From positions 1 to 35,336 of the forward strand of contig NZ_ALWB01000012.1 of assembly GCF_000332215.1 (NCBI RefSeq): 35,336 bases of DNA, in the 5' to 3' direction. The notes beneath the pieces are model-generated. The model saw only the letters and a program-made list of their open reading frames with translations, made no database searches and was not told the DNA's origin. This document shows, in pieces, positions 6,170 to 35,336 of the stretch (positions within the stretch are counted from its first letter, which is position 1; each line of letters begins with the position of its first letter). The stretch comes from Pseudanabaena biceps PCC 7429 (GTDB lineage: Bacteria; Cyanobacteriota; Cyanobacteriia; Pseudanabaenales; Pseudanabaenaceae). The position numbers were made by a program, and so were the translations under genes.

Positions 6170-7320
6170 ATATAGAATAGAAGTTACGCATTGACAGAAG
6201 GGAGAAGATTTGCAGGTAGGAGATAATTGTAATCAGCTAAGTTTTCCATGACAAAAGAACGAATGACATCATTGAACAAATTACGCTTGAGGGCATAGCA
6301 ATTCGTAATTAAATTGTGAATACAACGCAACTGCAAATGGACAAAAGCGGAAATAGCAGCAAAGATATGATTGGAGATAGCCACAGTCTGTCTAACGAAG
6401 AAACGCTCAATATTGGCAACTTGTTTAACAGTTCTGTGGAAAGATTCAATCTGCCAATGCAGATCATGGATGTCCAAGAATTGAGCCCGAGTAATCTCAG
6501 CAATTTTGTCAGGGTCAGGTCGGTAGATGATGTAGTGACGGAACTCGTTTTTGAAAACCGTTCTAAACACCTTGACCAAACCAAACCCCTTAAGATGCAT
6601 CTCTATTCCAGTATAGGGAATTTCGCAGTTTGATACCGAAGAATATGCGGTTGCATCTGCACTCAAGGAGACTGAGCGATTTTTTTCAATGCCAAACAGA
6701 AACCCAAGTTCATAGTGTTTGATGTACTCAAGATTCTCGGCACTGGCATACCAACTATCACCTGTGACAAATGCTGGTTTCAGTCCCCATGCGATGACTT
6801 CGGCAAGCATCTCCCGAAAATATTCATTCTTGGTCTTGCCCTCTTCTTTGTTATAAATACGGTAATTGACAGGAAAAGCACGTCCGTCAATATCGGTGTA
6901 GTACAGGGTGATGAGATTAATCCCCTTCACCACTTTCTTGTGTTTACCTGACCAGAAATAGCTGATTAGCGGTGCTTTGCTGGTATTACTGTAGGGTTTA
7001 TCTAGCACTGTATCATCGACACTCAGTACTCCTCCCTCTTTCTTGATGTTTGGCTCTACGCTTTGGTAGAGGTCTTTTCCTGTATAGCTTTCCCGTAGCA
7101 AAAATCGGTTCACACTATCATGAGACACTTCTTTGAGGATCTCGCCTAACCTCACACAACTTACCTGTTTTGGTTCTGACAGTAAAAACAAGATGTACTT
7201 GTTCAAGTCACATTTTGCCGTTGATGGTTTGCTGATTTCCCTCATTTTTGCTATGGCTATTGCTGGCTAACTCAATGCCTATTTTCTCCCTTTTGTCAAT
7301 GCGTAACTTCTATACTATAT
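6170..7320. mobile_element. Complete insertion sequence, about 1.15 kb
   Basis: Perfect 19-base inverted ends, TAGAAGTTACGCATTGACA, lie at 6178-6196 and (complemented) 7294-7312. The match continues outward to 6170 and 7320 with one mismatch, giving 27 bases. One intact transposase gene fills the element. No clear target duplication is seen, although CATG flanks both sides (6163-6166 and 7324-7327). The size and transposase suggest the IS4/IS701 superfamily; the exact family was not established. Confidence 0.9.
6184..7245 (-). CDS. DDE transposase (IS4/IS701-like)
   Basis: The 353 residues are intact. The catalytic acids are visible: aspartate in SVDDTVLDK, aspartate in VTGDSWYAS, and glutamate in WQIESFHRTVKQ, the last being the usual W-x-x-E helix of DDE enzymes with an RNase H fold. 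It cuts and rejoins the inverted ends of its own element. The last four codons and the stop (SVNA) lie inside the left inverted repeat, so the gene fills the element completely. Assignment to IS701 rather than another IS4-superfamily group rests on general resemblance. Confidence 0.9.
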   Translation of the reverse strand: MREISKPSTAKCDLNKYILFLLSEPKQVSCVRLGEILKEVSHDSVNRFLLRESYTGKDLYQSVEPNIKKEGGVLSVDDTVLDKPYSNTSKAPLISYFWSGKHKKVVKGINLITLYYTDIDGRAFPVNYRIYNKEEGKTKNEYFREMLAEVIAWGLKPAFVTGDSWYASAENLEYIKHYELGFLFGIEKNRSVSLSADATAYSSVSNCEIPYTGIEMHLKGFGLVKVFRTVFKNEFRHYIIYRPDPDKIAEITRAQFLDIHDLHWQIESFHRTVKQVANIERFFVRQTVAISNHIFAAISAFVHLQLRCIHNLITNCYALKRNLFNDVIRSFVMENLADYNYLLPANLLPSVNA

Positions 7321-7324
7321 TCAC

Positions 7325-8371
7325 ATGATAATAAAAAAACTCATAATTCGAGCTGATGCTTCTATCCAAGTTGGGACAGGGCATGTGATGCGTTGCTTAG
7401 CACTAGCGCAGGCATGGCAGGATAAAGGAGGAGAGGTAATATTTATATTAGCCAATAAATCTACTGCCCTAGAAAATAGATTGCGATCAGAGGGAATGAA
7501 AGTTGTTCATTTATTGGTTAAAACTGGGAGTAATGAAGATGTAAATCAAACTGTAGATTTTGCTCAAAAATTTAATGCTCAATGGATAGTTGTAGATGGC
7601 TATCACTTTGGGGCAAAATATCAAAAATATATCAAAGATTTTGGTATTAATTTATTATTCATCGATGACTATGGTCATACGGATTATTACTATGCTGATC
7701 TAGTCTTAAACCAAAATATCTCGGCGCATAAAGATTTATATCAAAGCCGAGAAATATATACTCAATTATTATTAGGTACTCAGTATGTTTTACTCAGACG
7801 AGAGTTTTGGCAATGGCGGGATTGGCAAAGAGCAATCAACCCGATCGCTCGTAAGTTATTAATTACATTTGGGGGAAGTGACCCTGACAATGTGACACTT
7901 AAAGTAATTCAAGCTTTAGAGGGTTTAAATAGAGATGATTTAGCAGTCATTGTTGTAATTGGAGGCAGTAATCCTCATCATGAAGTTTTACAGAAAGAAA
8001 TTGCCAATTCAAGCCTAGCAATCTCCTTGCAACGCAATGTTAGCAATATGCCTGAGTTGATGGCTTGGGCTGATCTTGCGATCACAGCAGGTGGATCAAC
8101 TAATTGGGAACTTGCTTTTATGGGTTTGCCAAGTATTGTTATTACCGTTGCAGAGAATCAAAAAGAGATCGCTACTGAATTAGATACTCAAGGCATTATT
8201 ATTCATATAGGTTGGTATCAGCAAATCACGCTCGAAAAAATTGGGATAGCCTTACAAGAGTTCATATATGATCAATCTAAGAGAGCCGAAATGAGCCAAA
8301 AAGGGAAAAAATTAGTCAATGGATATGGGGCAGTCCACGTTACATCAAAGATTGCTAATATATTATCCTAG
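7325..8371 (+). CDS. pseG: UDP-2,4-diacetamido-2,4,6-trideoxy-altropyranose hydrolase
   Basis: The 348 residues form a GT-B-like fold. The N-terminal signature ADASIQVGTGHVMRCLALA contains the catalytic histidine H20. It removes UDP from the activated diacetamido sugar in pseudaminic acid synthesis, just before the PseI condensation. The later segments GGSDPDN and AGGSTNWEL match the UDP-binding C-terminal half. It is the first gene of the glycan cluster, and its ATG is only four bases from the IS end with no Shine-Dalgarno sequence. Transcription and translation may depend on the IS or be impaired. The genes pseB, pseC and pseF, usually found with it, are not upstream. Confidence 0.92.
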   Translation: MIIKKLIIRADASIQVGTGHVMRCLALAQAWQDKGGEVIFILANKSTALENRLRSEGMKVVHLLVKTGSNEDVNQTVDFAQKFNAQWIVVDGYHFGAKYQKYIKDFGINLLFIDDYGHTDYYYADLVLNQNISAHKDLYQSREIYTQLLLGTQYVLLRREFWQWRDWQRAINPIARKLLITFGGSDPDNVTLKVIQALEGLNRDDLAVIVVIGGSNPHHEVLQKEIANSSLAISLQRNVSNMPELMAWADLAITAGGSTNWELAFMGLPSIVITVAENQKEIATELDTQGIIIHIGWYQQITLEKIGIALQEFIYDQSKRAEMSQKGKKLVNGYGAVHVTSKIANILS

Positions 8372-8392: not shown

Positions 8393-8887
8393 ATGTGTCT
8401 ACCAGAAGAATTTTTAAAATTAAGAAGAGTTAATGAGCAAGATTGTGAAATCCTGTGGAATTGGGTAAATGATCCAGCAGTTAGATCGTCTTCTTTTTTC
8501 TCAGATCTAATTTCATGGGAAGAGCATGTAAAGTGGTTTATAAATAAACTTGATTTAATAAACTGTTACTACTTCATTGCATTAAATAATCACGATAAAC
8601 CAATAGGTCAAATCCGTTTTGATGTTAATAGTCAGTTACAAGCAGAAGTAGATATTAGTATTGATATACAAGAAAGAGGTAAAGGCTATGCAAGTCATTT
8701 AATTAAATTATCAGTCGAACATTTATTTGCTCATACACTTGTCAAATCTATTAATGCATTTATTAAATCTGACAATCAAGCATCCATAAAATCATTTCAA
8801 AAAGCTGGTTTTAGGTATATTGGCATAGAGAAAATTCGAGAAAAGTATTTTGCATTACATTATATTGCGGTAAAAAACAATGAATAA
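8393..8887 (+). CDS. pseH: PseH-like N-acetyltransferase (GNAT)
   Basis: The 164-residue GNAT protein has the opening LRRVNEQDCEILWNWVND, typical of sugar-amine acetyltransferases, and the acetyl-CoA loop ERGKGYASHLIKL. PseH acetylates the 4-amino group of UDP-4-amino-4,6-dideoxy-AltNAc in pseudaminic acid synthesis. The assignment rests on the fold plus the position between pseG and pseI. If the neighbouring formyltransferase acts on the same amine, this enzyme could serve another position. It starts 21 bases after pseG and overlaps the next gene by 8 bases. Confidence 0.8.
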   Translation: MCLPEEFLKLRRVNEQDCEILWNWVNDPAVRSSSFFSDLISWEEHVKWFINKLDLINCYYFIALNNHDKPIGQIRFDVNSQLQAEVDISIDIQERGKGYASHLIKLSVEHLFAHTLVKSINAFIKSDNQASIKSFQKAGFRYIGIEKIREKYFALHYIAVKNNE

Positions 8888-9563
8888 TTATATAGTGGTT
8901 GGTAGCAAACCTTGGAATTATAGAATCTATAATGAAATCATTAAAAATTATCAAGGCAAATGGCATTTTATACAGCTACCAGAAATGCTAAATATTGATG
9001 AAATCAACAAAATAAATCCACGCTATATTTTCTTTCTCCACTGGTCTTGGAAAGTTCATGACGAGTTAATTAATAAGTATGAATGTGTCTGTTTTCACAT
9101 GACGGATGTTCCTTACGGGAGAGGAGGTAGTCCATTACAAAATTTAATTATTCAAGGTTATCAAAACACCAAATTAACTGCATTACAAATGACCCAAGAG
9201 TTTGATGCTGGTGCAATTTATTATCAAGAAAATTTATGTTTGGCTGGTAATGCAGAAGAAATTTATATTCGTGCCACTTATCTTTCTGCTCAGATGATTG
9301 AATATATTATTCAAAATGAACCATGTCCAGTGGAGCAAAAAGGCGAAGTGACACTTTTTAAACGCCGTGAACCTGCTGAAAGTGAAATCCCTGAAATGCA
9401 ATCTCTTCAGAATTTATATGATTTTGTTAGGATGTTAGATGCTGAAGGATATCCTCATGCATACATTCAGCATCAAGGCTTCCAATATAGTTTTAGAAGA
9501 GCAGCTTTATATGATGGTCATATTGTCGCAGATGTAGTTATTACTCCTTTACAGAAAATATAA
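8880..9563 (+). CDS. Sugar N-formyltransferase-like protein
   Basis: The 227 residues resemble the catalytic domain of methionyl-tRNA and sugar formyltransferases, which use 10-formyl-tetrahydrofolate. The central motif FHMTDVPYGRGGSPLQN (about 72-88) replaces the usual N-x-HPSLLPxxRG, and EFDAGAIYY (about 108-114) holds the catalytic aspartate D109. H73 is kept, but the Asn of the N-H-D triad is replaced by Cys (C71). The length is far below that of tRNA formyltransferase and there is no tRNA-binding C-terminal domain, so a small-molecule substrate is likely. Context between pseH and a deacetylase in a pseudaminate cluster suggests N-formylation of the nonulosonic acid or its precursor. That role is inferred. 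Confidence 0.75.
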   Translation: MNNYIVVGSKPWNYRIYNEIIKNYQGKWHFIQLPEMLNIDEINKINPRYIFFLHWSWKVHDELINKYECVCFHMTDVPYGRGGSPLQNLIIQGYQNTKLTALQMTQEFDAGAIYYQENLCLAGNAEEIYIRATYLSAQMIEYIIQNEPCPVEQKGEVTLFKRREPAESEIPEMQSLQNLYDFVRMLDAEGYPHAYIQHQGFQYSFRRAALYDGHIVADVVITPLQKI

Positions 9564-9565
9564 TA

Positions 9566-10252
9566 ATGAATATTTTAGTTGTTGCAGCTCATCCTGATGA
9601 TGAAGTGCTTGGATGTGGTGGCGCGATCGCAAAACATATTCAACAAGGTGATAAAGTTCATATTTTGATATTAGCGGAGGGTGTAACCAGTCGAAAATCA
9701 GAACGAAATAGAGATGATTTTCAAGCTGAGCTATCTGCCCTAGAAATTGTAGCAAATAAAGTTAGCCATTTATTAGGAGTAAGCTCTTTATCCATGCATG
9801 ATTTTCCTGATAATCGAATGGATAGTTGTGAGCTTTTAGATATCGTCAAATTTATTGAAAAATCAATTGAGCAATATCAGCCACAGATTATTTATACCCA
9901 TCATAGTGGAGATGTAAATATTGATCATCGTTGTATTCACCAAGCAGTTGTAACAGCTTGTCGTCCAATCCCAAATCATCCAGTTCATACATTGCTATTT
10001 TTTGAAATTCCTTCTAGTACAGAATGGCAAACGCCATCATCTGCGGTACCTTTCACACCTAACTGGTTTGTCGATATTTCAGAAACGCTTGTTCTCAAAC
10101 TTGAAGCCCTAGAAGCTTATGAATCGGAAATGCGTTCTTATCCTCATCCGCGATCACTAGAAGCTGTTGAATATTTAGCGCGTTGGCGAGGTGCTACTAT
10201 TGGGGTGAAGGCTGCAGAAGCATTTATGTTAGGTAGGCATTCAATAAGATGA
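9566..10252 (+). CDS. PIG-L/LmbE-family deacetylase
   Basis: The 228 residues have the zinc-binding motif AAHPDDE (H9, D11, D12) and a second metal-ligand segment THHSGDVNIDHRCIH (H112, H113, D116, D120, H121, H125). The family removes N-acetyl groups from sugars such as GlcNAc-PI, mycothiol precursors and antibiotics. Here it is two bases after the formyltransferase and overlaps pseI by 4 bases. A likely job is freeing an amine on the nonulosonic acid or its precursor, which the formyltransferase then modifies. The substrate is inferred only from the neighbours. Confidence 0.85.
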   Translation: MNILVVAAHPDDEVLGCGGAIAKHIQQGDKVHILILAEGVTSRKSERNRDDFQAELSALEIVANKVSHLLGVSSLSMHDFPDNRMDSCELLDIVKFIEKSIEQYQPQIIYTHHSGDVNIDHRCIHQAVVTACRPIPNHPVHTLLFFEIPSSTEWQTPSSAVPFTPNWFVDISETLVLKLEALEAYESEMRSYPHPRSLEAVEYLARWRGATIGVKAAEAFMLGRHSIR

Positions 10253-11301
10253 AAGCTATTGAAATTCAGGGACAAAAAATTGGGACAGATTATGCCCCTT
10301 TCATAATTGCGGAGATGTCAGGCAATCACAATCAATCCCTAGAAAGAGCCTTAGAAATTGTGGAAGCCGCAGCCAAAACTGGTGCTCATGGACTCAAAAT
10401 CCAAACCTACACTGCGGACACCATGACTTTAGATATCAATGAAGGTGAGTTTTTTATTAACGATCCTCAAAGTCTTTGGCAAGGCAATTCTCTCTATAAA
10501 CTCTATCAACAAGCCTACACACCTTGGGAATGGCATAAACCTATATTTGATCGCTGCAAAGAATTAGGAATTATTGGTTTCAGTACGCCCTTTGATGCTA
10601 CTGCCGTTGATTTCCTTGAATCCTTAGATGTGCCTTGTTACAAAATTGCTTCCTTTGAAAATACTGATATCCCACTCATCCGCAAAGTTGCCAGCACTGG
10701 TAAACCGATGATTATTTCTACAGGTCTGGCAACTGTTGCTGAGATAGATGAAACGGTAAGAATGGCTAGAAACTCAGGAGGTGAAGATCTGGTGCTGCTT
10801 AAATGTACAAGTACCTATCCTGCTGAGCCAGCAAATACAAACATTTTAACAATTCCTCATTTACGTGAATTGTTTGGTACTCAGGTGGGATTATCCGATC
10901 ACACTATGGGTATTGGTGTAGCTATTGCTAGTGTGGCATTGGGAGCAACGGTAATCGAAAAGCATTTTACGCTAAGTCGTGCTGATGGTGGCGTGGACTC
11001 AACTTTTTCGATGGAACCAGAAGAGATGCGCCAATTAGTGATTGAAACTGAGAGAGCATGGTTATCTTTGGGTAAGATTAGTTATGGGGTCACGGAAGCT
11101 GAGAAAAAATCCTCAATGTTTAGGCGATCGCTATACATTACTCAAGATATAAAAAAAGGCGATATATTAACATCCAAAAATCTCAAAGCTATCCGTCCAG
11201 GTCTAGGATTAACACCAAAATACTATGATGTTTTATTGGGGAAAATAGTCAATCAAGATATAAAAAAAGGAACTCCCGTGAGTTGGGAAATATTGGCTTA
11301 G
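10249..11301 (+). CDS. pseI: Pseudaminic acid synthase
   Basis: The 350 residues have the NeuB-type layout: a TIM barrel (about 1-265) that condenses phosphoenolpyruvate with a six-carbon amino sugar, and a C-terminal SAF/antifreeze-like domain (about 290-350). IIAEMSGNHNQS opens the barrel; KCTSTYPAE and LSDHTMGIG are active-site loops. The segment DGGVDSTFSMEP is the form seen in PseI rather than the GPDHxxSLEP form of sialic and legionaminic acid synthases. That supports pseudaminic acid or a close isomer as the product. The ATG overlaps the stop of the deacetylase gene. Confidence 0.92.
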   Translation: MKAIEIQGQKIGTDYAPFIIAEMSGNHNQSLERALEIVEAAAKTGAHGLKIQTYTADTMTLDINEGEFFINDPQSLWQGNSLYKLYQQAYTPWEWHKPIFDRCKELGIIGFSTPFDATAVDFLESLDVPCYKIASFENTDIPLIRKVASTGKPMIISTGLATVAEIDETVRMARNSGGEDLVLLKCTSTYPAEPANTNILTIPHLRELFGTQVGLSDHTMGIGVAIASVALGATVIEKHFTLSRADGGVDSTFSMEPEEMRQLVIETERAWLSLGKISYGVTEAEKKSSMFRRSLYITQDIKKGDILTSKNLKAIRPGLGLTPKYYDVLLGKIVNQDIKKGTPVSWEILA

Positions 11302-11304
11302 AGC

Positions 11305-13095
11305 ATGGATAAATTATTTAGAAAAACTCTTTACCTATTTAGCGATCACGAAAAAATCCAGATTGGACTGATATTTCTAATGATGCTTATCGGTGCGGGA
11401 TTGGAGACGCTGGGCGTTGGGCTGATTCCGCCATTTGTCGCGCTATTAGGTAATCCCGAAATTATCGGGCAGAAGCAAATCTTAAGTTGGCTTTATCACC
11501 AATTAGGAGCAAATTCTCATCAAATATTTCTGTTATGGGTGAGTATGGCACTTCTAGGTATTTATTTATTTAAAAATGCTTATCTTTCGATTCTGACCTA
11601 CTGGCAATATTACTTTCTATACAAAAAGCAGATTGCTCTGTCTAGTCGTCTCCTACAATCATATCTACATAGTCCTTACACATTTCATCTTCAAAGGAAC
11701 TCAGCCGATCTAGTTCGCAATGTTACTTCTGAAATACCATTAATTTTTTCAGGTGTAATTGTGCCAATGCTAATTTTAATTACTGAGATGATGGTAATGA
11801 GTTGTATTGTGCTTTTACTAGCGATCGCTGAACCTATATCATCAGCGATCGCTGCTGTATTTTTGGGGATATCGATATTTTGGTTAAATAGAACGATTCG
11901 TAAACAGATGCGTGGACAAGGATTGATTCGTCAAGAGCAAAGTGGGCAGATGGTGCAATGGGTTAATCAAAGTCTTGGTGGAATCAAGGAAACTAAGGTG
12001 TTAGGCCGAGAAAAATTTTTTCTGGATGCATTTACAAGAAGTACAGAAGCTTTTGGTAAAGCTAATTTCTTTGTGGGGCTTGCCACTCAATTACCAAATC
12101 TATTTATCGATACAGTACTAATCGCGGCTGTATTGTTAATTGTGATTTTTAGCCTCATCCAAGATAGAGAGATTCAGTCTATTTTACCAATGCTGTCTTT
12201 ATTTGCGATCGCGGCTTTACGTTTGATGCCATCAGCTAAGCGCATTATCTCTACAATTACGACTATTCGCTATTCTAAAGATGCTGTTGATGTGATCCAC
12301 CATGATCTCATATCTCTAGACACTCCATCAACTTCATCATTAGTCAAATCATCTCCAACATCATCACACCTATTTCAAAAGTCAATCGAACTAAAAGATA
12401 TCCATTATCAATACCCTAATGCTTCTAATCCATCATTGTTAGGTATTTCTCTGTCAATTACCAAGGGACAAGCAATCGCCTTTGTCGGAGCATCAGGTTC
12501 GGGTAAAACAACACTTATTGATGTTCTTTTAGGGTTGCTAACACCTAGCCAAGGTGAAATCCTAGTTGATGGTAAAAATATTCTTACTAATCTTGAAAGT
12601 TGGCAACAACAAATTGGGTATATTCCTCAAAGTATCTATCTTTCCGACGACACAATTCGTAATAATATCGCCTTTGGTTTAGTCACCGATGAAATTAAAG
12701 AAGAACAAGTATGGGATGCTCTCAAAGCGGCTCAATTAGAAGAATTAGTGCTTAGTTTACCTGATCAGCTAGATACTCTAGTTGGTGAGCGTGGAATTCG
12801 CTTATCGGGTGGTCAACGTCAGCGGATTGGCATCGCGAGGGCGCTATATCATAATCCAGAAGTGATTATCATGGACGAGGCTACTGCTGCTTTAGACAAT
12901 ACAACCGAGCGAGAGTTTATGCAGGCTTTAGAAGCAATGAGCGGACATAAAACGATGATTATGATTGCTCATCGCCTGACTACTGTCAAAAACTGCGATC
13001 AACTCTATTTGATTAAAGATGGTACCGTGGCGGATATGGGAACTTACGACTCGCTCTTATCAAAAAACAAAGAATTCCAAGTAATGTCTCAATAG
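11305..13095 (+). CDS. ABC exporter, fused membrane and ATPase domains
   Basis: The 596 residues begin with a six-helix type-I exporter domain (about 1-325), followed by an ATPase domain. The ATPase has Walker A GASGSGKT (395-402), the signature LSGGQ (500-504), Walker B VIIMDEAT (520-527) and the switch histidine H556. The layout resembles MsbA and the PglK lipid-linked oligosaccharide flippase. Three bases after pseI and inside the glycan operon, it probably flips the lipid-linked glycan across the inner membrane; lipid or peptide export cannot be excluded. It would work as a homodimer. Confidence 0.88.
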   Translation: MDKLFRKTLYLFSDHEKIQIGLIFLMMLIGAGLETLGVGLIPPFVALLGNPEIIGQKQILSWLYHQLGANSHQIFLLWVSMALLGIYLFKNAYLSILTYWQYYFLYKKQIALSSRLLQSYLHSPYTFHLQRNSADLVRNVTSEIPLIFSGVIVPMLILITEMMVMSCIVLLLAIAEPISSAIAAVFLGISIFWLNRTIRKQMRGQGLIRQEQSGQMVQWVNQSLGGIKETKVLGREKFFLDAFTRSTEAFGKANFFVGLATQLPNLFIDTVLIAAVLLIVIFSLIQDREIQSILPMLSLFAIAALRLMPSAKRIISTITTIRYSKDAVDVIHHDLISLDTPSTSSLVKSSPTSSHLFQKSIELKDIHYQYPNASNPSLLGISLSITKGQAIAFVGASGSGKTTLIDVLLGLLTPSQGEILVDGKNILTNLESWQQQIGYIPQSIYLSDDTIRNNIAFGLVTDEIKEEQVWDALKAAQLEELVLSLPDQLDTLVGERGIRLSGGQRQRIGIARALYHNPEVIIMDEATAALDNTTEREFMQALEAMSGHKTMIMIAHRLTTVKNCDQLYLIKDGTVADMGTYDSLLSKNKEFQVMSQ

Positions 13096-29709: not shown

Positions 29710-31539
29710 TTGAATATTGTCATCGACACCATCAGAATCGCAGGTTTTCGGGGCATCAAAAATCTTGAGATGTCTCTGCCTCGCGTTACTTTGCTGATTG
29801 GGATGAATAATTCAGGAAAAACATCTGTACTAAAAGCACTTCAATTAGCTTTGGGTGATTACTCGCGCTATTTATCTGAAGAGGATTTTTATATTGGTAG
29901 TGACGATAAACGTGCGGCTGAGATAGTTGTAGATGTTAGGATTGTACCTGTAGATGAACAAGGCGATCGCATAGATACATTTGATGATGATTGGCAGGCT
30001 GAATTTCAAGATAGGATTCAATCTGAATCTAACTCTCGTCAATATGTAGCACTTCGTACTCGTAGTAAACCAGATGAAGTTAAGGGTGGTTTTGATACAT
30101 CTTACTTAGTGCTTAGGCAATGGGCAGATTATAGTAACTGGCTGACTGATAGCGTACAGGTTTCCACTAAAAATTTTTCCCGTCCTACAAGCATATTATT
30201 TATTCCAATTGATGCTCAAAGAGATATTCATCACGAAATTAGAGATAAGTCTTCACTGATACGGAAAGTTTTGTCATCTGTTAAATATGACAATGCAGAA
30301 GTTACTGCTCTAGAATCGTTGATTAAAGATGTTAATGATTTAGCAATTACTAAAAGTACCGAACTTACCAGTCTAAAGACAAATTTAGAAAAACTGAATC
30401 AGTCGATTGAGAGTTCTGGCAAAGCCGAAATCACTCCTTTTCCCAGAAAGATTCGCGATCTTTCTAAATATTTCTCGGCTCATTTTGGTGAAAGTGCAAG
30501 TAGTACCTTTTCTATGGAATATCACGGAATGGGTACACGTAGCTGGGCATCTATGTTAGTTGTCAAAGCTTTTACTGAATTACAAGATGAAAAACATGCG
30601 AAGGAAGCAAAGCCTTTCTTTACTATTCTTGCAGCCGAAGAGCCTGAAGCACATTTACATCCAAACGCTCAGAAAACCCTGTATAAACAACTTGATGATT
30701 CTAGAGGACAAGTGATCATCAGTACACATTCGCCCTATGTGGCGGCTATGGCTAAACAAAGTGAGCTAAGATATTTAAAGAAAGATGCGGACAACATAGT
30801 CGTCAAATATCTAAGTAATGAGCTTACTCATGAAGAAAGGCGTAAGTTACATCGTGAGGTCATCCATTCTAGAGGTGAAATCCTTTTTTCTAAAGCTATT
30901 GTTCTATGTGAAGGTGAAACAGAAGAGCAAGCATTACCATTGCTTTTTGAAAAATATTTTGGTAGTGAAGCATTTGTAAAGGGCATAAGTTTTATTGGAG
31001 TTAGAGGAGCAGGGAACTATCTTCCATTTTTACGATTTGCCTATGATTTCTCTATACCTGTTTATATTTTTGGTGATGGAGAAGATTCAGCAGTCAACGC
31101 ACTCAAAAAACACTACGAGAGCGTATATGGAAAGACAGAAATTTTAAATTGCTCAAATATTACTATCCTTGATGGTACTAATTTTGAAGGTTATCTGATT
31201 TCATCGGGATTTCAATCAATAGTTGAATCTGCCATTGAAGATCTTAACGGGAATGGAGCTATTCAAAAGTGGATAGATGATAACGATGGTAAGTGGGCTG
31301 GGAGAAAACCAACCAATCAGCCCACCTGTAAAACATGTAATCAGAAAATCTATATTGATGTTATTAAAGACTATCAATCATCTGGGGGTGCTAACAGAGT
31401 TTTGATGGATATTCTTAAGCCTGGTAAAACCAAATACGCTCCATTAATTGCGGAAAAGCTCTGTGAGCTTGAGAAAGAGCAGTTACCTCCAAAAATTCTT
31501 GAATTTTTTCAGAAGATTGAAAATGGAGGCATAATATGA
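29710..31539 (+). CDS. gajA: Gabija protein GajA (OLD-family nuclease)
   Basis: The 609 residues form an ABC-type ATPase domain with a C-terminal TOPRIM nuclease domain, the OLD layout. Walker A is GMNNSGKTS (31-39), Walker B LAAEEPEAHLHP (307-318), the switch histidine is in ISTHSPYV, and the TOPRIM acids are in LCEGETEEQ (399-407) and FGDGEDS (454-460). One CKTC pair lies near residue 540. In Gabija, GajA is a sequence-specific DNA-nicking enzyme controlled by nucleotide levels, acting with GajB against phages. The start is TTG, with AGAGG about 10 bases upstream. It overlaps gajB by four bases (ATGA). Size is close to known GajA. Confidence 0.9.
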   Translation: MNIVIDTIRIAGFRGIKNLEMSLPRVTLLIGMNNSGKTSVLKALQLALGDYSRYLSEEDFYIGSDDKRAAEIVVDVRIVPVDEQGDRIDTFDDDWQAEFQDRIQSESNSRQYVALRTRSKPDEVKGGFDTSYLVLRQWADYSNWLTDSVQVSTKNFSRPTSILFIPIDAQRDIHHEIRDKSSLIRKVLSSVKYDNAEVTALESLIKDVNDLAITKSTELTSLKTNLEKLNQSIESSGKAEITPFPRKIRDLSKYFSAHFGESASSTFSMEYHGMGTRSWASMLVVKAFTELQDEKHAKEAKPFFTILAAEEPEAHLHPNAQKTLYKQLDDSRGQVIISTHSPYVAAMAKQSELRYLKKDADNIVVKYLSNELTHEERRKLHREVIHSRGEILFSKAIVLCEGETEEQALPLLFEKYFGSEAFVKGISFIGVRGAGNYLPFLRFAYDFSIPVYIFGDGEDSAVNALKKHYESVYGKTEILNCSNITILDGTNFEGYLISSGFQSIVESAIEDLNGNGAIQKWIDDNDGKWAGRKPTNQPTCKTCNQKIYIDVIKDYQSSGGANRVLMDILKPGKTKYAPLIAEKLCELEKEQLPPKILEFFQKIENGGII

Positions 31540-33440
31540 TTGATTTATCTCCAGATAAAAGAAGTATAGTTTACGCTCCAACGGATCGAGCAATACAGGT
31601 ACTAGCTTCGGCTGGATCGGGAAAGACTCGTGTTTTGACAGAGCGTGTAAGGCATATCATTAACAGCACTAAAAAAGATGGAGTTATAGCATTAACTTTC
31701 ACAAACAAAGCTGCGGAAGAAATGCTCAATCGTCTAGAAGACCTTGAAGATGTTAATGAACGATGCTGGATAGCGACAATTCATTCTGTAGCTCAACGCA
31801 TACTTGAACAGTATGGACATACCCTTAAAGATGTTGCTTTGCCTTCTGAGTTACATATTTACGATCGTGATGAAGATCGCAAAACTATTTTTATTCAATC
31901 TCTGCGAAATGAGGGCATAGATATTGATAAATTTCTTGATGTGTCGGACAGTAAAACAAAAAGAGAGCGAGAAGCTAAAATTCAAACTCGATTGGGACAG
32001 TTTGCTACTGTTAAAAGAGAATTATTAGATGAACAAGAAATCATCAATAAATATTCTGAAAATACTAAATTTTTGTCAATCTATCGTTCGTACCAAAAAG
32101 CTCTATTTGAAGGTGGAGGTATTGATTTTGAGGATATCCTTGTTTACGCTCATAAAATACTTCTTGATAACTCATGGTGTGGTGATATCTATCGCGCAAA
32201 ATATAAGCATATTTGCGTTGATGAAGCCCAAGATCTCAATAAAGCTCAATATGAATTTATAAAGGTTTTATGTGGAGAAAAAATAAGGAGCGTTCTGATG
32301 GTTGGCGATCCTAATCAGATGATTTATGGTTTTAATGGTTCATCAAACAGATATCTCCTTCAAAATTTTCTTAATGACTTTAGTCCGATTCAGTATGTCC
32401 TTAATAAGAATTTTCGTAGCTCAAAAGCAGTTGTTAATCTGGCTAATAAGATAAAACAAGGTTCTCAATCAGAATATGATTTTGCTCTTGATGGACGTAG
32501 TGAAATTAAAATACTAGAAGATGAAAATTCTGAAGCAGTTTGGATTTGCAACAAAATTGATGAATTAATCCAAGAAAAATCAAGCCATGAAATTGAAGGT
32601 GATATTTCACTAGACAAAATGGTAGTTATTGCTAGAAATCGTTTTGTCTTTAAGACTCTTGAAGAACATCTTAAAGTTAAAGGAATTAATCCTTTATTTA
32701 ATAGGGGAGAACGACAAGTAGAAGCATCATCAACTTTTGGCAAGGTCTTAGATCTTGCAATTCGTGTACGCTTGAATAAAAAAGATTGGGTAGACGGCAA
32801 AAAACTGTGTACAGTTTTGAAGATTGACAGTCCTGATGTATGGGATGACGAATGTATATTGAGTAAATTTGCTGAAAACGTTCTAAACACAGATATTCCC
32901 ATCCCTGATATTCAGTCCAAACTTTTACTTGAGATTCAAAATTTAGATATAAACGATCCCAATATACCTAAACTCTGTAAATGTTTTGCCCAACTAATCG
33001 AGGAAAGAAAAAATGAAACATTAAATGAATTTGAAGAAAATGAACTTGAACGCTCTATCCAAGAGCTTCAGGAATTTAAAGAATGCTGGCAAAAATCTAA
33101 GATTTTAGGACTAGGTTCTCTTTCTTCTTTTCGCAATGCAATGGCGTTAGGACAGTTAAATGGAAATAATAGTAAAAATGGACTAACTTTGAGTACAGTT
33201 CATACTATGAAGGGATTAGAGAAAGATATCATTTTTTTGATGGGAATGTGTGAAGGAGTTTTTCCAGACTATCGCGCTCGTACTGAACAAGATATTGAGG
33301 AAGAACGAAATAGCGCTTTTGTTGCTGTAACTAGAGCTAAAAGATGGATTTATATAACATCCCCTCGGTTGCGAAAAATGTCTTCGGGAAATAGCAAAGT
33401 GCAGCGACCATCTAGATTTATTCGGGAGATGCAGGGATAG
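31536..33440 (+). CDS. gajB: Gabija protein GajB (UvrD-like helicase)
   Basis: The 634-residue superfamily 1 helicase has motif I ASAGSGKT (24-31), Ia LTFTNKAAEEM, II CVDEAQD (227-233), III VGDPNQMIYGF (256-266), IV LNKNFRSS, V STVHTMKGLEKD and VI VAVTRAKR (596-603). In Gabija it senses DNA ends produced during infection and works with GajA. It is longer than the roughly 500-residue reference GajB of Bacillus cereus, with an enlarged region between motifs IV and V. Translation is coupled to gajA. No other defence gene is fused to it. Confidence 0.9.
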   Translation: MIDLSPDKRSIVYAPTDRAIQVLASAGSGKTRVLTERVRHIINSTKKDGVIALTFTNKAAEEMLNRLEDLEDVNERCWIATIHSVAQRILEQYGHTLKDVALPSELHIYDRDEDRKTIFIQSLRNEGIDIDKFLDVSDSKTKREREAKIQTRLGQFATVKRELLDEQEIINKYSENTKFLSIYRSYQKALFEGGGIDFEDILVYAHKILLDNSWCGDIYRAKYKHICVDEAQDLNKAQYEFIKVLCGEKIRSVLMVGDPNQMIYGFNGSSNRYLLQNFLNDFSPIQYVLNKNFRSSKAVVNLANKIKQGSQSEYDFALDGRSEIKILEDENSEAVWICNKIDELIQEKSSHEIEGDISLDKMVVIARNRFVFKTLEEHLKVKGINPLFNRGERQVEASSTFGKVLDLAIRVRLNKKDWVDGKKLCTVLKIDSPDVWDDECILSKFAENVLNTDIPIPDIQSKLLLEIQNLDINDPNIPKLCKCFAQLIEERKNETLNEFEENELERSIQELQEFKECWQKSKILGLGSLSSFRNAMALGQLNGNNSKNGLTLSTVHTMKGLEKDIIFLMGMCEGVFPDYRARTEQDIEEERNSAFVAVTRAKRWIYITSPRLRKMSSGNSKVQRPSRFIREMQG

Positions 33441-35000: not shown

Positions 35001-35004
35001 CTAG

Positions 35005-35336
35005 GGCTTGCTGAAAAAGAGACTAAGCGGAAAGGAGTGTGCAAAGAGGAAGGGGATAATACTTTGACTGTCTACTAGGAAATTGCCAAGAAAAGAATTA
35101 AAGTTAAAGAGCGGTTTCCGCGAAGGAAGAACAAAGAGTTGCCAGCAAAACAAAAACCAAGAAAAACCGAAAAAACAATCCGCTTGAGCAGGGCTTCCAA
35201 ATTCATCACCAAGAAAGTGATAGCGATCGCTGTTTCCGAAGTATTTGCTAACTTGGTCATGACACGATTTAAACTGAACCGTCGTTTAGCCTGTCCAAAC
35301 TTACCTTCAATTCGATTGCGAACCTTAGCATCTTCG
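35005..35336 (-). mobile_element. IS5-type element, 3' end only (cut by window)
   Basis: The segment GGCTTGCTGAAAAA near 35005 looks like an IS terminal repeat, and the preceding CTAG fits the YTAR target type of IS5 relatives. The other end is outside the window, so neither the inverted repeat nor the duplication can be confirmed. Confidence 0.55.
35075..35336 (-). CDS. IS5-family transposase, C-terminal part
   Basis: The frame is open from the window edge to TAG at 35075-35077. It reads EDAKVRNRIEGKFGQAKRRF, which contains the last catalytic glutamate region of IS5 transposases (RNRIEGKFGQ), followed by LNRVMTKLANTSETAIAIT and a hydrophobic tail. An internal Met has been taken as a start in automated calls, but the true start is outside the window. 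Whether the element is complete cannot be judged. Confidence 0.8.
   Translation of the reverse strand, partial: EDAKVRNRIEGKFGQAKRRFSLNRVMTKLANTSETAIAITFLVMNLEALLKRIVFSVFLGFCFAGNSLFFLRGNRSLTLILFLAIS

Follow-up and report, generated by a model that had tools for sequence, protein, structure and literature searches.

The contig NZ_ALWB01000012.1 of the cyanobacterium Pseudanabaena biceps PCC 7429, analysed here in its full length of 35,336 bases (the window, also C12 below) and drawn from an assembly of 5.47 Mb in 464 contigs, contains a group of genes for the synthesis of pseudaminic acid (Pse) in which a gene for a small folate-type formyltransferase, here called FT1, is directly followed by a gene for a PIG-L/LmbE-type de-N-acetylase. 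We propose that the two enzymes probably form a module within the pseudaminate pathway that exchanges one N-acyl group for another, the product of which would be 5-N-formyl pseudaminic acid. An earlier note on this DNA had described a formyltransferase and a PIG-L deacetylase translated together between pseH and pseI, a gene content that is borne out by the coordinates and by the scores of the PF02585, PF21553 and TIGR03586 models (Table 1). Its suggestion that deacetylation precedes formylation is well supported by the recurrence of the two genes together in the pse clusters of many phyla, and it is the chemistry, the acyl position and the order of the steps that we infer.

In the scheme that we favour, PseB and PseC would provide UDP-4-amino-4,6-dideoxy-L-AltNAc, the N-4 of which becomes N-7 of pseudaminic acid and the N-2 of which becomes N-5. 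The enzyme encoded after pseG, in what we call the slot (a GNAT acyltransferase in the window, a formyltransferase in some relatives), would acylate N-4, the future C7 position. With N-4 occupied, N-2 would be left for the deacetylase and FT1: PIG-L would free it of its acetyl group and FT1 would formylate it, with formyl-tetrahydrofolate as donor. PseG, PseI and PseF would then lead to CMP-activated 5-N-formyl pseudaminic acid. PIG-L enzymes typically act on 2-acetamido sugars, and the window enzyme is likewise predicted to take the acetyl off N-2 (C5 of Pse). The two additional steps most likely precede PseG, since characterised sugar N-formyltransferases act on nucleotide sugars. The product of the window would thus be Pse5Fo7Ac, provided that its divergent GNAT transfers acetyl, as PseH does; elsewhere, C7 would carry an N-acetyl group where the slot holds a true PseH and an N-formyl group where it holds a formyltransferase. 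The pathway summary in PMC5109656 has PseH acting at the C4 amine.

The partnership of FT1 and PIG-L is strongly conserved. A scan of genome contigs returned 533 relatives, of which the 80 best were kept; these come from 15 named phyla, with 5 loci lacking a label, and their flanks were annotated with pse-related profiles only, grown from the genes of the window and of a second contig of the same assembly (C47). Of these 80 loci, 77 have a PIG-L gene, either within 50 bases of FT1 (56 loci) or 1.0-1.25 kb away with pseI in between (21 loci), and two of the three loci without it (L069 and L088) stop at contig ends. The full set of pseB, pseC, pseG and pseI can be reached in 57 loci. Counts over genomes point the same way: in a sample of 755 genomes (386 of the phylum of the window and 369 of the class of genome G386, the two centres being excluded from the counts), all 10 genomes that carry FT1 also carry PIG-L of this subfamily, as opposed to 27 of the 743 that lack FT1 (Fisher p 2e-14, uncorrected for relatedness), under thresholds that differ between the two genes (1e-10 with a single sequence and 1e-12 with a profile for the formyltransferase, 1e-30 and 1e-40 for PIG-L). 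In one of those ten genomes (G611), FT1 is partial and the PIG-L gene is interrupted by two in-frame stops. Fusions into single open frames also occur, of the slot GNAT with FT1 (L091) and of PIG-L with a formyltransferase (L045).

An alternative idea is that the two enzymes act on some other amino sugar of the glycan instead of the Pse precursor. Glycosyltransferase-like and methyltransferase-like genes, named by eye from their translations, do lie downstream of the pair in the window and would suit such a role, but nearly every locus with enough flank has the pair in the company of pseG, the slot gene and pseI, FT1 shares one frame with the slot GNAT in L091, and no second sugar pathway was seen to recur with FT1 among the pse-related profiles used. 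We therefore regard this explanation as quite improbable.

The loci vary in the slot, defined as a position within 400 bases of pseG, fused to pseG or within 400 bases of FT1. In the 69 loci with pseG in reach, it contains a GNAT in 46, a second formyltransferase in 16, both in none and neither in 7. Strains with FT1 and PIG-L include Dolichospermum sp. LEGE 00240 and Brevifollis gellanilyticus, with a GNAT in the slot, and Moorena bouillonii and Shewanella kaireitica, with a second formyltransferase. Thirteen of the 16 slot formyltransferases are of one type, with an NLVVHES-like motif, and three are PseJ-like (L029, L038 and L050), that of L050 matching the PDB entry 6ci2, 'formyltransferase PseJ', at an E value of 2.4e-30. 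Of the seven loci with neither, two (L074 and L076) carry the enzyme at another place in the cluster; the others have a WbqC-family protein (L051), ATP-grasp genes (L043 and L071) or a methyltransferase (L084 and L102). FT1 does not take the place of PseH, a slot GNAT or second formyltransferase standing alongside it in 62 of the 69 pseG-bearing loci. A strict exclusivity of GNAT and second formyltransferase was also considered; it holds for the slot over the 80 loci, but is broken cluster-wide by L111 and L198 and outside the slot by L045 and L074.

On a tree of FT1, the slot state switches 12 times, against 15.9 times with shuffled labels and a possible minimum of 2; given the starred branches, the GNAT label must change 7 times and that of the second formyltransferase 6 times. 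This tree was built by a quick method and has 41 weak branches among its 78 inner ones; 65 of its 81 rows carry a state and 16 do not, and L074 and L076 were scored by the enzyme found elsewhere in the cluster (L074 has in addition a GNAT near a pseF-like gene). The slot enzyme has thus been exchanged repeatedly while FT1 and PIG-L have stayed constant.

The earlier note called the upstream neighbour pseH. A GNAT is indeed there, but at 46.8 bits against a TIGR03585 cut-off of 93.1 it can be termed PseH-like and not a confirmed PseH. Its closest match in the PDB is MJ1062 (3.4e-8), followed by PseH 4xpk (1.7e-5), and the slot GNAT of the nearest relative (L035) reaches 147.3 bits with the PseH model. 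Ten slot GNATs were compared with the models; three score above the PseH cut-off, six have PseH as their best match below it and one is unmatched at 1e-8. Because three PseJ-like enzymes and three of ten GNATs that pass as PseH occupy the slot, we consider the slot to be probably the N-4 step, in which case FT1 would act at another position.

Clusters that use a second formyltransferase without FT1 provide a natural control. Eight such clusters were found through formyltransferase searches, a count that leaves out L146 and L147 (found via PIG-L) and L199 (a weak PseJ-type match without pseG or pseI). Four of them (L192, L193, L194 and L200) have the gene order pseB, pseC, pseF, pseG, second formyltransferase, pseI, and L118 has the same gene set as L192 with pseG not found. 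The stretch read contains no PIG-L, GNAT or FT1 gene in any of these five, and none of the genomes concerned appears in the PIG-L lists. The lack of PIG-L in five of the eight suggests that formylation of N-4, in replacement of PseH, needs no deacetylase.

The assignment of the two positions might be the reverse, with FT1 formylating N-4 (C7) as PseJ would and PIG-L unmasking N-2 (C5) for some other acyl group brought by the slot enzyme. PseJ, the structures of which presumably come from Anoxybacillus kamchatkensis, is taken by us to act at the C4 amine and to make 7-formamido Pse. The formyl-Pse documented in PMC3210612 is a 7-formamido sugar, in keeping with the reversed assignment, and the scores of the window GNAT and of most slot GNATs compared, falling as they do under the PseH cut-off, would be compatible with an acyl group other than acetyl. 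On the other hand, slot GNATs that pass as PseH (three of ten) would then merely swap acetyl for acetyl, PseJ-like enzymes occupy the slot itself in three loci, and PIG-L is missing from five of the eight clusters with a second formyltransferase and no FT1. The reversed assignment appears unlikely to us on this balance, if less so than the other alternatives discussed here.

Several observations nonetheless weigh against 5-N-formylation by FT1 and PIG-L as proposed above. The position specificity of PseJ enters the argument as our assumption. The 80 loci were selected for their likeness to the window, the window GNAT and seven of the ten slot GNATs compared fall under the PseH cut-off, and five of the 69 pseG-bearing loci (L043, L051, L071, L084 and L102) lack an acyltransferase, whether in the slot or fused at some other place. 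One locus (L100) carries FT1 with no PIG-L in 19.4 kb. Conversely, PIG-L and a second formyltransferase occur with no FT1 seen in L116, L117 and L195, which are among the eight clusters above, and in L146 and L147, the last being cut by a contig end; L116 and L146 hold a GNAT as well. The enzymes GNAT, second formyltransferase and FT1 are found together in L111 and L198, and in L045 a fusion of PIG-L with a second-type formyltransferase accompanies a GNAT and FT1. For L111, L198, L116, L146 and L045, one has to suppose that the enzymes share out the steps differently or that there is a third acyl group. Finally, the structurally documented formyl-Pse of Pseudoalteromonas distincta has its formyl group at C7, according to PMC3210612.

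The deacetylase itself conforms to its superfamily. The window protein scores above the gathering score of PF02585 and has the H-x-D-D-E ... H motif that we take to be the metal site of PIG-L/LmbE proteins; in the alignment of 78 sequences, window included, H9, D11, D12 and E13 are invariant and H121 is kept in 77. It has PF02585 and this motif in common with BshB1, BshB2 and diacetylchitobiose deacetylase, yet it scores 70.4 bits with the BshB1 model TIGR04001, below the cut-off of 182.5, and by such profile comparisons it is a separate subfamily within PF02585. The same subfamily also appears without FT1 in Pse clusters, next to a WbqC gene in L219, to a formyltransferase of a third kind and a WbqC gene in L218 and to ATP-grasp genes in L217 and L220. 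These four loci are candidates for other substituents at C5, and the combination of PIG-L with WbqC, ATP-grasp or other formyltransferase genes fits a general unmasking step.

A protect-and-release scheme in the style of ArnA and ArnD, with FT1 adding a formyl group that PIG-L would later strip to leave a free amine, has in its favour the nearly constant pairing of the two genes and the homology of ArnA to FT1. ArnD, however, is not known to be a PIG-L protein, and the use of this PIG-L subfamily with WbqC, ATP-grasp and other formyltransferase genes in place of FT1 suggests unmasking for varied substituents, so that we judge the scheme very improbable, marginally more so than action on another amino sugar. 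As a separate observation, other clusters (L154, L155, L157, L158, L224 and L225), some of them with NeuB-like genes, pair a more distant PIG-L gene with a weakly PseJ-like formyltransferase that adjoins it or is at most about 1.4 kb away; the pairing of deacetylase and formyltransferase may be wider than pseudaminate.

As regards FT1, its nearest solved relative is 1zgh from Clostridium thermocellum (E 6.7e-58 in a search of the PDB and 5e-85 in a profile search). The predicted structure (pLDDT 93.3) superimposes on 1zgh with a Z score of 29.6, at 2.0 A over 224 residues with 41% identity, and Z scores of 18-19 against Fmt and ArnA place it within the superfamily fold. The two proteins share the motif FHMTD.P.GRGGSPLQNLI. 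The name of 1zgh, 'methionyl-tRNA formyltransferase', stems from annotation only, and a homologue of FT1 in the Synechococcus NIES-970 record AP017960.1 is annotated in the same manner. That FT1 is an ordinary methionyl-tRNA formyltransferase is nevertheless hardly credible, and we have rejected it: TIGR00460 gives 42.8 bits against a cut-off of 201.5, the protein has 227 amino acids and sits among pse genes, and the genome holds a separate reading frame of 332 amino acids with a weak formyltransferase match. Neither can FT1 be equated with PseJ, since its sequence is closest to 1zgh and the PseJ-like genes of these clusters occupy the other position; PseJ, like linear gramicidin synthetase, is a remote relative found by profile only (E 1e-5 for PseJ). 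Assignment to FT1 or to the second formyltransferase followed the best of three models built in this analysis, and L112 was taken as FT1 at only 152 bits. A cyanobacterial match (G301) and most gamma matches below 60 bits were left unclassified; they are mostly 310-365 amino acids long and likely Fmt by length only. A search with FT1 had no match at 1e-5 in phage records and found two plasmid records, one of them a weak match.

The earlier note had drawn attention to a cysteine, Cys71, in the place of the asparagine of what we take to be the Asn-His-Asp catalytic triad of the superfamily. This residue is indeed present, and Cys occupies the position in 71 of the 81 aligned cluster homologues (window included), but it is nothing special: the remainder have Val (5), Asn (3) or Gly (2), more distant relatives have Ile, Leu or Met, and 1zgh has Val. 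The other two members of the triad, His73 and Asp109, are invariant in all 81 sequences. Judged from this alignment, the FT1 family has lost the triad Asn and Cys is one among several replacements; because the position varies so widely among relatives, a catalytic role for Cys71 is rejected. The three sequences that have Asn there belong to Peribacteria (L062, L072 and L077).

Formyl nonulosonic acids and PseJ are already known, and it is the route to them through PIG-L and FT1 that was not found in the literature searched. PseJ (PDB 6ci2, 6ci4, 6ci5 and 6edk) is, by its PDB molecule name, likewise a folate-type formyltransferase of pseudaminate synthesis; FT1 differs in its distant sequence, in its lack of the triad Asn and in having both a deacetylase and a slot acyltransferase of its own as neighbours. 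A 5-N-formyl nonulosonic acid is reported for Halorubrum sp. PV6, with a predicted formyltransferase in the cluster (PMC6137143); that sugar is legionaminic and not pseudaminic acid, the formyltransferase gene corresponds to a 953-bp PCR product, longer than FT1, and the main text of the article nowhere uses the word deacetylase. Pseudoalteromonas distincta KMM 638 makes a natural N-formyl pseudaminic acid, Pse5Ac7Fo (cited in PMC3210612), and formyltransferases have been noted in flagellin glycosylation islands (PMC5109656, PMC4875605). In the open-licence PMC literature, the long result lists of which were covered in part, we came across no description of a PIG-L deacetylase working alongside a formyltransferase to make pseudaminic acid, and the titles and abstract openings listed mention no PIG-L deacetylase in this pathway.

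Beyond the window, these results lead us to suggest, tentatively and with somewhat more doubt than conviction, an N-acyl code that spans phyla. In such a code, the constant PIG-L and FT1 would set a formyl group at C5 and the exchangeable N-4 enzyme would set acetyl, formyl or another group at C7 (the WbqC, ATP-grasp and methyltransferase genes of a few loci being candidates for the latter), so that 5-N-formyl-7-N-acetyl and 5,7-di-N-formyl Pse would be common but unrecognised. If this were true, sugars annotated as plain Pse5Ac7Ac would be mono- or di-formylated in many phyla, and phage receptors, lectins, antibodies and glycosyltransferases would encounter a different cell surface; it would be clear which gene sets the substituent at C5 and which at C7, and a formyltransferase family recorded as methionyl-tRNA formyltransferase would acquire a function. 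The type of cluster predicts the mass of the sugar, which would be shifted by -14.016 Da where a single formyl replaces acetyl and by -28.031 Da where two do. Isomers formylated at C5 or at C7 have equal masses; an N-formyl group shows itself by a 1H signal near 8.0 ppm (PMC9912281).

The genes of the window are listed in Table 1. The GNAT and FT1 genes overlap by 8 bases, FT1 and PIG-L are 2 bases apart, and PIG-L and pseI overlap by 4. An annotated ABC-type transporter also comes after the NeuB gene in Synechococcus NIES-970 (AP017960.1).

Table 1. Position of the pseudaminate genes and adjoining features in the window.
Feature	Position	Strand	Evidence
Multicopy insertion sequence directly upstream of pseG	6177..7313	-	transposase 6184-7245
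pseG, UDP-sugar hydrolase of the pseudaminate pathway	7325..8371	+	TIGR03590 257 bits (cut-off 153.55)
GNAT acyltransferase, PseH-like, slot after pseG	8393..8887	+	TIGR03585 46.8 bits (below cut-off 93.1)
FT1, folate-type formyltransferase, 227 aa (amino acids)	8880..9563	+	PF21553 Formyl_trans_C_2 84.5 bits (cut-off 27)
Cys71 codon TGT, place of the superfamily triad Asn	9090..9092	+	alignment
PIG-L/LmbE-type de-N-acetylase, 228 aa	9566..10252	+	PF02585 95.5 bits (cut-off 28.2)
pseI, pseudaminic acid synthase	10249..11301	+	TIGR03586 505.7 bits (cut-off 340.25)
ABC transporter, probable glycan exporter, directly 3' of pseI	11305..13095	+	PF00005 and PF00664

The rest of the pathway lies outside the window. 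Both pseB and pseC are found on C47, with scores of 504.5 (cut-off 407.75) and 553.4 (423.5), respectively, and the genome thus has PseB, PseC, PseG and PseI each above its curated cut-off, with only one PseI scoring above it, a point in favour of the proposed role of the pair. By eye, C47 also carries an aldo/keto reductase, a WbpG-type amidotransferase, HisH, HisF and a candidate pseF, in which a cytidylyltransferase-like domain is fused to an aminotransferase-like domain and which has counterparts in related loci; a further GNAT there was recognised with Pfam. The amidotransferase set (WbpG type, HisH and HisF; L027 9691-12338, C47) adjoins pseB and pseC, has counterparts in several related loci and may convert an N-acyl group of the same sugar to an amidine.

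The separation of the two gene groups seems to be connected with the insertion sequence upstream of pseG. C47 ends within the same element (59 identical bases, C47:20471-20529), which has 39 matches in the genome, many of them at or near contig ends, and the three bases ACT are found at its edge both on C47 and before pseG, but are absent from its left edge in the window. Given the shared element and the matching flanks, the latter being weak evidence alone at three bases, the genes from pseB to pseF and from pseG to pseI were probably once a single operon that was split by the insertion. The sequence to the left of position 6177 may, as a consequence, not be the true neighbour of pseG. Farther along the window, the forward strand carries a Gabija-type defence pair at 29710-33440, with GajA (PADLOC PDLC00067, 813 bits) followed by GajB (PDLC00132, 860 bits). 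The last 335 bases of the window (35002-35336) recur at C47:2325-2661 with 99.4% identity, and it thus appears that another repeat terminates contig C12.

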